Assembly (NCBI GenBank): GCA_003223245.1
Contig: QHYI01000130.1
Location: 76,986 to 140,985, forward strand
Length of the DNA: 64,000 bases
DNA from: Acidobacteriota bacterium
GTDB taxonomy: Bacteria; Acidobacteriota; Terriglobia; Acidiferrales; UBA7541
Direction of reading: 5' to 3'
Below are positions 55,369-62,454 of the stretch, in pieces (within the stretch, counting starts at the first letter, position 1; every line of letters begins with the position of its first letter). Below the pieces are notes generated by a model, which was not told the DNA's origin, did not search any database, and saw only the letters and a list, made by a program, of their open reading frames with translations. The translations under genes and the position numbers were made by a program.

Positions 55369-56733
55369 ATGCTCAAGCTTTCGTCACTTTTTGCTTCACT
55401 CTTCTTCCTACTTTCTTCTGGAATCGTGTCTGCAAAGGGCTCTCACGCGGAGGAACCGCAGGAGGCCGCACATCCATCTAACACGAGCGTCTCAGGCCGA
55501 TGGATCATCACTGTGGACGTTTACGGGACCCCGCTTTTCTACCAGATGCATTTGAAGGAGGAGGCGGGAAAACTTACAGGAGATTTTGGCGGCGACAAGC
55601 TTGAGGGAACCGTCACGGGCAATTCCATCCATTTTGTTGCCAAAGACGAGCAGGGCGGGACGGAGGAGTGCACGGCCACTTTGAAAGAGGGAACCATGTC
55701 CGGGACATTCGTGTTTACGGATGCAGGCGACCCGACTCGTCCGGAAACACATGCGTTCACAGCGGCTCTTGCGCCAGAGCGGCGCACGGGGCCAGCGAGA
55801 CGGCACGAGTTCGTCCCCACAACGTTTTACCGCCAATTTTCCTCGGCGAACAAGCCGGTGCTGACCATCTCGCCGGGAGACACCGTTCACACAACAACTG
55901 TGGACGCTGGCGGAACCGACGAAAAAGGTGTGACCCGCGTCCTGGGAGGAAATCCAGAGACTGGGCCTTTCTACGTGGAGACGGCGATGCCGGGCGACAC
56001 CCTGGTGGTGCATCTGACGCGCGTGCGCCTCAACCGCGATTGGGCCATCAGCGACGATGGGATCGTCCCCCGCGGCCTGGACACCGGCCTCGCCGTGAAA
56101 ATGAAGGACGGCGGAAAATCCGTGCGCTGGCATTTGGACACGGCTCTCGGCGTGGCAACACCCGGGAAACCATCGGAACATTTGGCACATTATTCCGTGC
56201 CGCTGCGGCCGATGCTGGGATGCGTAGCGACCGCTCCGCCTCCTGCGGCGGCGCCTCCAGGTACGGGCGACTCGGGAGGTTATGGCGGGAACATGGATTT
56301 TAATGAAGTGGCCGAGGGCGCCACGATCTATTTGCCGGTGCGGACGCCTGGCGCTCTGCTTTATCTAGGGGACGGTCACGCGGCCCAAGGCGACGGCGAA
56401 TTGAACGGCAACGCGCTTGAAACTTCCATGGACGTCGAATTCACCGCGGACGTAATCCCCGGAAAACGCGTGCCGGGTCCGCGAGTCGAGTCTCCTACGC
56501 ACATCATGGCCGTAGGACTGGCTGGGTCGATTGACGACGCCTTCCGCGACGCTACCGCAAATATGGCTGCATGGCTTGAGGAGAAATATGCATTGACCCC
56601 GCCGGAAGTGGCGGAAGTGTTGGGCACCGCGGCGGAGTATAAAGTGAGCGAGGTTGCTGACCGCAACGCCGGCGTCGTGCTGAAAATTAACAAAGAACGC
56701 CTGCTCGCGCTTCCCGCCGCACCTGCTAAGTAA
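55369..56733 (+). CDS. Exported acetamidase/formamidase-family protein
   Basis: This is a 454-aa protein from the ATG at 55369 (GTG at 55363 also possible). A signal peptide (LLSSGIVSA) is followed by a lipocalin-like beta domain of about 90 residues (GRWIITVDVYGTPLFYQMHL). The FmdA/AmdA fold follows (VLTISPGDTVHTTTVDAGGT, GPFYVETAMPGDTLVVHLTR, GYGGNMDFNEVAEGATIYLP, GALLYLGDGHAAQGDGE). The conserved acidic and histidine residues near GDGHAAQGDGEL suggest an active amidohydrolase. The combination of signal peptide and N-terminal domain differs from the usual cytoplasmic formamidase. The substrate is unknown. Confidence 0.88.
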   Translation: MLKLSSLFASLFFLLSSGIVSAKGSHAEEPQEAAHPSNTSVSGRWIITVDVYGTPLFYQMHLKEEAGKLTGDFGGDKLEGTVTGNSIHFVAKDEQGGTEECTATLKEGTMSGTFVFTDAGDPTRPETHAFTAALAPERRTGPARRHEFVPTTFYRQFSSANKPVLTISPGDTVHTTTVDAGGTDEKGVTRVLGGNPETGPFYVETAMPGDTLVVHLTRVRLNRDWAISDDGIVPRGLDTGLAVKMKDGGKSVRWHLDTALGVATPGKPSEHLAHYSVPLRPMLGCVATAPPPAAAPPGTGDSGGYGGNMDFNEVAEGATIYLPVRTPGALLYLGDGHAAQGDGELNGNALETSMDVEFTADVIPGKRVPGPRVESPTHIMAVGLAGSIDDAFRDATANMAAWLEEKYALTPPEVAEVLGTAAEYKVSEVADRNAGVVLKINKERLLALPAAPAK

Positions 56734-56802
56734 GCCAGGGCCGCCGCAACTCCGCGATGTGGAGGGCCCCAGCGGTCAAACAGACGCAGCCGAGCGGCCC
56801 GC

Positions 56803-57336
56803 CTAAACGCCCAAGTCCGGTATCGCCCGCAAGGCATCGTTGAAGCGGTTGGTGAAATTCGCGAGACAGACGACCATGGTGAGTTCCACGATTTGTGCTT
56901 CGTCAAAAAACTTCCGCAATTCCTCGAGCGTGCCCGTGCGCATCGCGGCCGCTCCGCGCGTTACGCGCTCGGCGTACAAAAGCGTGGCTTTGTCCTTCTC
57001 ATCAAAGAGCGGGCTGCGCTCATAAAACTCGAGTGCCTGGATCTGTTCGTCGGTAATGCCGATTCGCTTCGACGAAGCGATATGCGCGCGCGTTCAATAT
57101 TCGCACCCGTTGAGCAGCGACGTTTTTAGGTAGGCCAGCTCTTTGTAGCGCGCTTCGACCGCGCCTTCGTTCATGATGGCCCCGAACAAAGGCAGGAAAT
57201 TCTTCAGCACGTTCGGCCGGTGGGCCATCAGCCCGAAAATCGCGGGCATTTTGCCGAATTTTTTGGGCAACTCTTCGTAGACAGCGCGCAGCTCTGGCGC
57301 AGCTTTTTCTTTTGTCAAAGGACTGACAACGGCCAT
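56803..57336 (-). CDS. AhpD/carboxymuconolactone-decarboxylase-like selenoprotein (in-frame TGA = Sec81)
   Basis: This is a 177-residue protein if TGA at 57094-57096 is read as selenocysteine. It starts at the ATG at 57336 with GGAGG 6 nt upstream. Family features: LPLFGAIMNEGAVEARYKEL, then NGCEY-U-TRAHIASSKRIG, where Cys78 and U81 occupy the CxxC redox site of AhpD-like proteins, and FTNRFNDALRAI near the end. The frame remains open and family-like for 96 codons past the TGA to TAG at 56803-56805. A SECIS-like hairpin follows the TGA, and selA is nearby. It probably works as a thiol/selenol peroxidase or disulfide reductase. The alternative is a nonsense mutation of the second cysteine (TGC to TGA). 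Confidence 0.75.
57064..57080 (-). promoter_or_regulatory. Candidate bacterial SECIS hairpin
   Basis: On the transcript strand TCGCTTC-GTC-GAAGCGA forms a perfect 7-bp stem with a 3-nt loop beginning with G. The loop starts 21 nt after the in-frame TGA, within the 16-37 nt spacing I recall for bacterial SECIS elements, and a G at the start of the loop fits the SelB recognition rule. Confidence 0.6.
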
Positions 57337-57980
57337 AAGCAACCTCCATAGGCAAGCAAATGAACATAGAAATTTTACCGGAGTTGATCCCGCTGAGGCT
57401 AGTAATTCGGGACCCAAGGAACCGCTTGAGCCGGATCAAACCCAGCAGCAAGGGTCTCCTTTGGGATGGAGCCAAAATTCATAACGATCCGCTAACGCTC
57501 GATCGGCATCTTCCCCCGGCCAGCCCTGCGGCGCAAAACAGCAACCAGGGACTCGGGAGTGATGCGGCGCGCCTGACGGAGATTTGCTCGGCACAAGCAC
57601 CCAGCGCTGAACCGCTGGCACGGTCGAAATCGCACATGGAGAAGGGCTTAAGCGGGAGAAACTTTGCGCTACTTTTGGGGTTTGTGATCACTCTGTCGCC
57701 TGAAAGGCGACGGCTTCTCGCGGCACGCATGAGCATGAGACGACATCCTCTACGTTATGCCGCGAACGCCCGATCCGGGCGCGTTGCAGTATGCTGTCCA
57801 CGGCAACGGATTTGCGCAGATTGATCAAAAGACTTTCGCGCGGAAGATTGGCTGGCCCGGTCCACGACGCCGGATGGAACGCTTTCTTTGCCATCTATAC
57901 GCTTTGGCGACAGAGATGTTCGTTGTGTAGGTGAGAGGGCCACTCATTTGAAGCCATTAGGGCCAAGCACGCGCGGAGGT
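57337..57980. other. Gene-poor region upstream of the selenoprotein gene
   Basis: This is 644 nt with several weak frames on both strands but none with coding-like composition plus a ribosome binding site. A short stretch near 57780-57850 reads LQYAVHGNGFAQIDQKTF on the plus strand and could be a remnant. No RNA gene was recognised. Confidence 0.35.
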
Positions 57981-60714: not shown

Positions 60715-61005
60715 TCTTGCCAAGGCTCCCGAGAGCTCCATGCTAGGGTGACGAGAGGAAAGCGTCAACCACGGAGCGAAAAGGTGCTTCGAATGCGACA
60801 TGGAGAGGAACCTAACGGCTTCGACCGGGCCGGAGTAACCTGCCCGGGGGCGGCAGGCTAAAGGTATGGCCATCTTGTGGCTTGCGGCATGGCTGCCGTT
60901 CGCGGGAGGGTAAAAAGCCGTGCCCTCTACAAACATTCCTCTTGGGGGTGGGATGCGCATCCGACAGGATTGCCCGGGTGGGCGGCTCTGTGCTGAAATG
61001 TGCGC

Positions 61006-62454
61006 ATGGCGTCGCACACCAAACGAGGGATTTCGGCCGAACAGTCAGAACTGCTGCGGCAGATTCCGTCGGTCGACGAGCTGCTCGCCGAGCCGCGCCT
61101 GGCAGAGCTTGCGAAGCGCGTGGACCGCAATCTGGTCGTCGAAGTTGCGCGCGCCGTGCTGGAGGACCTGCGAGGACGCATCACCGGGCAGGCGGCCACC
61201 GCCCTTCTCGCGGAAATTTCTCCTGTGGCGTGCGATCCGGCATCGCTCGAAGAGCGCATCACTAGGATGGTAGAGCGGATTCTGGCGCGGTCGCTGCTGC
61301 CGGTGATTAACGCGACAGGCGTGATTTTGCACACGAATCTGGGACGCGCGCCGCTGCCGGAAGGCGTAGTGGAAGAATTTCGCCGCACGGCGACGCGATA
61401 TTCGAATCTCGAATATGACCTGGAAGCGGGATCGCGAGGGAAACGCGACGTGCATACGGCGGAACTGCTGAAGAGGCTCACGGGAGCGGAAGCCGCGATG
61501 GTGGTGAACAATTGCGCGGCAGCGGTGCTGGTCACGCTAGCGGCGTTTGCGCGCGGCGGCGAGGTGATTGTTTCGCGCGGCGAACTGATTGAGATTGGCG
61601 ACGGGTTTCGCATCCCGGAAATCATGGAGCAGAGCGGGGCACAGTTGCGCGAGGTGGGAACGACGAATCGCACACGGCTCGCGGATTATGAGAAGGCGAT
61701 CAACGAAAAAACGCGGTTGTTGCTGCGCGTGCATCCATCGAATTTCAAAGTAACCGGATTCACGGACAAACCGTCGCTTGAAGAACTTGTCTCGTTGAGC
61801 GAGCGCACGGGAATTGCTCTAGTGGAGGATCTTGGGTCCGGCTGCCTCACCGACTTGGCCGAGCACGGGATCAGCGAGCCGACGGTGCGGCAGAGCGTGG
61901 AGGCGGGCGTTGGGATTGTGACCTTTAGCGGAGATAAGTTACTCGGCGGGCCGCAGGCGGGAATCCTTGCTGGGAAAAAAGATTTGATTGCACGCGTGCG
62001 GCGGCATCCGATGTTCCGCGCACTGCGGGTGGACAAACTGACGACTGCAGCGCTGGAAGTCACGCTCGGCGCGTATCTGCGCGCGGCGTGGGACGAAATT
62101 CCGGTGATGCGGATGATTCGCGTGACGCCACAGGAATTGCAGCGCCGCGCGGAGAATTTCATCCGCGAGCTGCGCCCGGAGCTACCGCGAGACGAAGTGG
62201 AGATCGAGGTGGTAGACGGAGCTTCGCTGGCCGGAGGCGGCTCGACTCCAACACAATCGCTGCCCAGCAAAGTGGTTCGCATTGCCAGCGCTCGCTATTC
62301 CGCCGCAAAGCTCGGGCAGCGTCTGCGCCGCGCGCCGGCGGGGATTTCCGTCATTGCGCGCGTGGAAGAAGATCGCCTGGTCCTCGATTTGCGGACTGTA
62401 TTTCCCCACGAGGAACCTTTACTTCTCAAGACACTCGCCGCCGCGCTGCGCTAG
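61006..62454 (+). CDS. selA: L-seryl-tRNA(Sec) selenium transferase
   Basis: SelA is the PLP enzyme that converts seryl-tRNA(Sec) to selenocysteinyl-tRNA(Sec) using selenophosphate. The 482-aa protein from the ATG at 61006 (a GTG at 61000 is possible) has the typical N-terminal helical part (LRQIPSVDELLAEPRLAELA). The PLP core follows: INATGVILHTNLGRAPLPEG, YSNLEYDLEAGSRGKRDVHT and the PLP lysine near residue 312 in FSGDKLLGGPQAGI. Its presence shows the organism can probably decode UGA as selenocysteine. selB and the tRNA-Sec gene are not in the window. The ribosome binding site is weak. Confidence 0.95.
   Translation: MASHTKRGISAEQSELLRQIPSVDELLAEPRLAELAKRVDRNLVVEVARAVLEDLRGRITGQAATALLAEISPVACDPASLEERITRMVERILARSLLPVINATGVILHTNLGRAPLPEGVVEEFRRTATRYSNLEYDLEAGSRGKRDVHTAELLKRLTGAEAAMVVNNCAAAVLVTLAAFARGGEVIVSRGELIEIGDGFRIPEIMEQSGAQLREVGTTNRTRLADYEKAINEKTRLLLRVHPSNFKVTGFTDKPSLEELVSLSERTGIALVEDLGSGCLTDLAEHGISEPTVRQSVEAGVGIVTFSGDKLLGGPQAGILAGKKDLIARVRRHPMFRALRVDKLTTAALEVTLGAYLRAAWDEIPVMRMIRVTPQELQRRAENFIRELRPELPRDEVEIEVVDGASLAGGGSTPTQSLPSKVVRIASARYSAAKLGQRLRRAPAGISVIARVEEDRLVLDLRTVFPHEEPLLLKTLAAALR

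Follow-up and report, generated by a model that had tools for sequence, protein, structure and literature searches.

The hairpin at positions 57064–57080 (minus strand) of the window, the 64,000-nucleotide stretch of Acidobacteriota DNA analysed here, is almost certainly a bacterial SECIS element lying inside a coding region, to which SelB would bind so that the preceding UGA is read as selenocysteine (Sec). The first-pass annotation had read the hairpin in this way, and its interpretation is supported by the association with Sec rather than Cys among relatives, by covariation in the stem and by the Sec machinery of the genome. A hairpin spotted by hand thus becomes a SECIS with good support, including true covariation within a coding region, and a clade of AhpD-like selenoproteins is added from Acidobacteriota and from loci labelled Rokubacteria.

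An AhpD/CMD-like selenoprotein gene

The gene occupies 56803–57336 on the minus strand, running from an ATG at 57336 to a TAG stop at 56803 and encoding 177 amino acids, and is preceded by a Shine-Dalgarno-like GGAGG (57343–57347, minus strand) 6 nt 5' of the ATG. Its frame contains a single in-frame TGA at codon 81 (57094–57096, minus strand). When this TGA is read as U, the local sequence is N-G-C-E-Y-U-T-R-A-H, and U81 takes the second Cys position of the motif (C-E-Y-U), a codon that is TGC or TGT in Cys relatives. The gene assignment is based on Pfam, on AlphaFold and Foldseek, and on TGA-containing orthologues. The window protein scores 58 bits against Pfam CMD (cut-off 23) and 32.8 bits against the NCBIfam AhpD core domain TIGR00778 (cut-off 27.8), passing both, and the combination of a CMD/AhpD domain with a CxxU motif (C78-E-Y-U81) places it among the AhpD-like selenoproteins. 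An AlphaFold model of the 177-residue product is all-helical with a mean pLDDT of 92.3, and its Foldseek matches in the PDB are the AhpD-like 2o4d, 6k40 and 3c1l and the debrominase Bmp8 (6ohi). The top PDB sequence match is likewise 2o4d, with 33% identity over the aligned part.

Alignment A1, in which U is drawn as C, shows no variation across its 14 rows at E66, C78, Y80, H85 or the Cys/Sec column. The proton relay of PA0269 (2O4D), as described in PMC3141380, comprises Glu36, Cys48, Tyr50, Cys51 and His55, and its spacing equals that of E66, C78, Y80, U81 and H85. As the proton-relay residues correspond in spacing, U81 falls at the site of Cys133 in Mycobacterium tuberculosis AhpD; the window protein differs in having Sec where both PA0269 (Cys51) and the M. 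tuberculosis enzyme have Cys. The product is thus an AhpD-like oxidoreductase with a predicted C-x-x-U active site formed by E66, C78, Y80, U81 and H85. Judging from fold and residues, it probably functions in peroxide reduction or as a thiol/selenol redox adaptor, and Sec would be the attacking residue.

The hairpin and the constraints on bacterial SECIS elements

On the minus strand, the 17-mer from 57080 to 57064, UCGCUUC-GUC-GAAGCGA, forms seven Watson-Crick pairs between a 5' arm (57080–57074) and a 3' arm (57070–57064). The stem is closed by the 3-nt apical loop GUC (57071–57073, minus strand), whose first base, at 57073, is a G. As scored, 20 nt separate the TGA (57096–57094) from the hairpin loop, the loop base having been placed 21 nt downstream by the first-pass annotation. 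Its coordinates, stem length, loop and TGA distance were all correct on the minus-strand sequence. It also had the hairpin encoding IASSKRI; the 17 nt do cover the codons I-A-S-S-K-R, but the final I lies outside the stem.

Published limits for bacterial SECIS (bSECIS) elements are a loop of 3–9 nt, an upper stem of 4–16 bp and a spacing of 16–37 nt (PMC13188914, Fig. 2 legend), together with a G within the first two loop positions, often then followed by G or U, and an MFE of at most −7.5 kcal/mol (PMC13188914). The window hairpin lies within all of these, with a loop of 3 nt, a 7 bp stem, G at loop position 1, a spacing of 20 nt and an MFE of −7.7 kcal/mol for the 17-mer alone or −8.5 kcal/mol with 3 nt of flank on each side (z −3.0). 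The description of the hairpin as SECIS-like is therefore borne out on all four published bacterial constraints. Stem length, small G-first loop, spacing and energy are shared with the bSECIS consensus; the element differs in being minimal, with just 7 bp of stem and 3 nt of loop.

Taken alone, the hairpin is at chance level, and comparison decides. The 64-kb window holds 9 perfect 7-bp/3-nt hairpins, and ten first-order Markov shuffles of it averaged 5.4. Folding of the 50 nt from the TGA returned the same hairpin as a local element, but overall stability was not above that of shuffles (z +0.86). An Rfam search of 56500–57600 matched no family; to our knowledge there is no Rfam model for bacterial SECIS elements, so this result says little.

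That bare hairpins are not rarer than chance in the window could be taken to favour a TGA that is a sequencing error or the mark of a pseudogene, next to a chance palindrome forced by the A-S-S-K-R codons, and Cys orthologues of the same peptide (L053, L134) can indeed hold 6 pairs. However, the stem survived in only 74 of 20,000 synonymous recodings (0.4%), with any 7-bp bacterial-SECIS-like hairpin arising in 88 of 20,000, and the hairpin is thus unlikely given the encoded peptide. Furthermore, the frame is open on both sides of the TGA, which is found at the same codon in 26 close and distinct orthologues. It is the comparative evidence that places the hairpin far beyond chance.

The hairpin is kept with Sec and lost with Cys

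Relatives were drawn from 101 genomes near the window's own, from a scan of contig collections (80 loci kept of 114) and from 95 genomes of the same order. Merging of identical stretches gave 101 unique rows on the Sec column, comprising 43 with Sec, 55 with Cys and 3 with Ala. A close group of 37 rows (26 Sec, 11 Cys) was defined at an identity of at least 57%, a threshold set after the gap to the next row (49%) was seen. Before counting, L038 (motif column uncovered, two stops) and the three Ala rows (L033, L037, L039) were left out. Also left out was L035, which has the TGA but a frame that differs right after it; this row is among the 17 distant Sec rows and not among the 42 used for covariation. 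The L035 homologue (L035:1501-1758) departs from the frame after the motif near a contig end, and is either a fragment or a frameshift. The paralogues with Ala in the Sec/Cys column are probably not redox-active at that position.

Each of the 26 close Sec orthologues forms 7/7 pairs at an identical offset. The 11 close Cys orthologues all fall short of this, their stems keeping 6, 6, 4, 4, 4, 4, 3, 3, 2, 2 and 2 pairs. A structure kept with Sec and absent with Cys (26/26 versus 0/11) is the behaviour that marks a bacterial SECIS. The loss expected by the first-pass annotation where Cys is present was found throughout, as none of the 55 distinct Cys rows, including the 44 distant ones, retains all seven pairs. 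If the register is left free, 7 of the 55 (L053, L056, L134, L099, L106, L128 and L046) do hold a bSECIS-like hairpin with 6 bp or more, so register and full stem, rather than the bare presence of a hairpin, carry the signal. When the offset was slid from −200 to +249 nt of the TGA, no other position had more than 8% of Sec rows at 7/7.

Among the 42 intact Sec rows, 36 have the hairpin in register and one has 6/7 pairs; of the other five, four carry a different bSECIS-like hairpin and one has none. The exceptions are all distant: of the 17 distant Sec rows, 10 show 7/7 pairs in register, L097 shows 6/7, and L123, L125, L036 and L042 carry a bSECIS-like hairpin in another register (6 bp or more), with no contiguous 4-bp hairpin candidate in L124. 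The first-pass annotation took Sec relatives lacking any hairpin, or Cys relatives keeping it unchanged, to count against a SECIS. The close group contains no Sec row of the former kind, but the distant L124 lacks a good hairpin and four distant rows have shifted register; as for the latter, the full stem is gone from every Cys row, but L053 and L134 keep 6/7 pairs, which we read as remnants.

The same comparison bears on the possibility that the palindrome acts at the level of DNA and has nothing to do with UGA decoding, whether as a site of protein binding or recombination or as an attenuator. A perfect stem equals a DNA inverted repeat, which speaks for this reading, but its presence tracks Sec and not species or gene context, and the first loop base is G in 36/36 in-register Sec rows (GGC 25, GTC 9, GGG 2) although the stem sequence varies. 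Nor did the 56500–57600 region yield an Rfam match. With the 7-bp stem found in 0/55 Cys rows, a DNA-level element is ruled out for practical purposes, and we give it a negligible probability compared with a SECIS.

Eleven extra loci mostly repeat rows already counted; L148 is clearly new and has the TGA and 7/7 pairs. Distant AhpD-like Sec paralogues at 34–45% identity (L139, L140, L091, L031, L034, L041, L043) have 7-bp stems at the exact same offset, several of them of different sequence. L123, L124 and L125, titled Candidatus Rokuibacteriota, show a shifted candidate SECIS with a GGTCA loop that is clear in L123 and L125 and present as a broken version in L124.

Covariation and its cost to the protein

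Covariation was scored on 42 Sec rows (40 distinct), which are all Sec rows except L035 and were not selected for pairing. In this set 91.1% of cells pair, and double-sided changes occur in 5/7 pairs. There are 28 double-changed cells where shuffles average 6.5. The covariation score of 0.336 (0.178 shuffled) was reached by 0/500 shuffles, with all slid versions lower. The number of double-changed pairs was matched by 66/500 shuffles and the pair types by 314/500, each alone being not unusual. For the 26 close Sec orthologues, 25 of them distinct, pairing is complete (100% of cells), and double changes affect 3/7 pairs, in 9 cells. Compensatory stem changes where U is present, which the first-pass annotation had put forward as the check, were thus found both in the full Sec set and in the close group. 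When the same structure was imposed on Cys rows (23 of the 55), 42.9% of cells paired, and 289/500 shuffles equalled or exceeded the covariation of 0.066. RNAalifold applied to alignment A2 predicted 4/7 pairs at an energy of −0.07, all four with double changes, as rows of other registers break the rest.

The compensation extends to the encoded protein. In L025, L067, L080 and L091 a CGG (Arg) codon is replaced by CAG (Gln) exactly where the opposite base changes from C to U. The residue opposite this stem base is Arg in 32 and Gln in 4 of the 36 in-register Sec rows and never Lys, and Lys is the commonest residue there in Cys rows (6/11 close, 29/44 distant). Pair changes that compensate even through an Arg to Gln replacement argue against a palindrome forced by codons, and the shared TGA together with the covariation refutes the error, pseudogene and chance-palindrome account, the probability of which we regard as vanishingly small.

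Sec machinery in this and related genomes

selA, encoding L-seryl-tRNA(Sec) selenium transferase, lies on the same contig approximately 3.7 kb away (61000–62454, plus strand; TIGR00474 564 bits against a cut-off of 267.9, Pfam SelA 463.7 bits). Elsewhere in the genome are selB (contig C180, 356.9 bits), tRNA-Sec (C156, 64.4 bits; called as tRNA-SeC(tca) by ARAGORN) and selD (C232, 345.5 bits; L047, G000:C232:53356-54318). With selA, selB, selC and selD all found, the genome is Sec-decoding. The selD gene has an in-frame TGA of its own, within K-A-A-G-U-A-A-K, followed by a hairpin-forming stretch.

In the E. coli paradigm, as described in PMC1794560 and PMC13188914, a complex of SelB, GTP and Sec-tRNA(Sec) docks on the hairpin and brings Sec to the UGA. 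By analogy, we infer SelB binding and Sec insertion at U81: the hairpin, transcribed with the gene, would recruit SelB loaded with GTP and Sec-tRNA(Sec), and the bound SelB would hold Sec-tRNA(Sec) 20 nt from the UGA, which would then specify selenocysteine and not a stop. In the same window purH terminates in TGA, so UGA decoding is context-dependent.

UGA can also be decoded by near-cognate Trp-tRNA readthrough or by a UGA-to-Cys tRNA, and the hairpin might then merely pause the ribosome. The Cys found at the U81 position in relatives would suit such a route, but the genome has a full Sec system and uses UGA as the stop of purH, and with a G-first apical loop at SECIS distance another route is superfluous. 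We consider it very improbable, and favour Sec insertion directed by the hairpin.

Of the 37 genomes, 26 carry a Sec orthologue and 11 a Cys orthologue; SelB scored over the cut-off in 23 of the former and 7 of the latter. The presence of SelB in 7/11 Cys genomes indicates that the hairpin follows the residue and not merely the presence of the machinery. Full SelB over the cut-off was not found in three of the Sec-orthologue genomes (two fragments in G063, none in G148 and G155), and at the E-value used tRNA-Sec had no match in G064, G142 and G155 and weak matches in G040 and G148; draft assemblies are the likely explanation. Among the Cys genomes, G121 (source of L134) has SelB at 365 bits and tRNA-Sec at 70.2 bits, G123 (source of L053; 73% complete) has no SelB match at E 1e-50 and a tRNA match of 49.7 bits, and G051 (97% complete) has neither SelB nor tRNA-Sec over the cut-off. 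G145 has two tRNA-Sec matches (G145:C223:77646-77736, 71.5 bits; G145:C96:28018-28108, 62.6 bits), though its L075 copy uses Cys.

Probable Sec to Cys changes and decay of the SECIS

A tree of 47 rows, built with the motif and stem-coding columns removed, needs six Sec/Cys changes. Six independent Sec/Cys pairs can be drawn across supported branches; in an average of 5.7 of them the hairpin accompanies Sec, and in none does the association run in reverse (sign test, median p 0.031). Rooting the close group with an outgroup requires five losses if the ancestor had Sec, against seven changes if it had Cys, which suggests about five Sec-to-Cys reversions within one family. Two Cys (TGC) orthologues with 6/7 pairs, L053 (L053:2741-2788; Sec sister L052) and L134 (L134:1741-1788; Sec sister L021), carry apparent SECIS remnants.

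The 2026 review (PMC13188914) describes Sec-to-Cys changes as rare, with FdhA and SelD as the main documented cases, and remnant SECIS elements in Cys genes are shown for FdhA and HesB-like proteins in PMC1794560 (Fig. 4 legend). L053 and L134 resemble these cases in seemingly keeping a degraded SECIS after Sec-to-Cys change; they differ in belonging to an AhpD-like thiol-oxidoreductase family, whose approximately five inferred losses show decay advanced to different degrees. We propose, with moderate confidence, that this soil-bacterial AhpD-like family underwent approximately five independent Sec-to-Cys losses with graded SECIS decay (6, 4, 3 and 2 of 7 pairs), and that the stem dictates a residue of the protein for as long as Sec is retained. 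If so, some losses occurred with the whole Sec system gone and others with SelB and tRNA-Sec still there, bacterial thiol oxidoreductases would revert from Sec to Cys more often than has been assumed, and the SECIS constraint would shape enzyme sequence. The natural sister pairs L052/L053 and L021/L134 are suited to testing how the SECIS decays once Cys replaces Sec.

Relation to known families and distribution

AhpD-like CxxU selenoproteins with an in-gene SECIS are known from the Sargasso Sea and GOS selenoproteomes, as reported in PMC1088965 and PMC2398784, and the 2026 review has a TIGR01926 row for AhpD-like selenoproteins (PMC13188914). The window protein shares with the marine proteins, as described there, the AhpD/CMD fold, Sec as the second residue of CxxC and an in-gene SECIS just 3' of the UGA; its clade differs in having been met in Acidobacteriota and in loci labelled Rokubacteria, not in marine samples. 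It falls just short of TIGR01926 (peroxidase-related enzyme; 78.8 bits against a cut-off of 81.8). NF053654 (GroundWater_YciW, YciW-related (seleno)protein) is its best NCBIfam match by E-value and is matched by 14/14 rows of A1, but at 98.5 bits against a curated cut-off of 310 the window protein is not a member. The kind of selenoprotein is thus already known, and the window clade appears from these scores to be new, since it reaches no cut-off among the named NCBIfam subfamilies tested. The journal literature entries covered by our search do not name this Acidobacteriota/Rokubacteria clade. As the scores lie under the NCBIfam subfamily cut-offs, automatic annotation likely truncates these genes at the UGA.

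A tblastn search with the amidase, PurH and SelA of the window against 37 loci, with flanks mostly of at most 2.5 kb, gave no match and hence no helpful operon context; SelA, at a distance of 3.7 kb, is mostly beyond such flanks. The gene itself is patchily distributed: at E 1e-62 it was matched in 26 of the 399 genomes from the class and in 5 of the 396 from the phylum, which suggests transfer or frequent loss.
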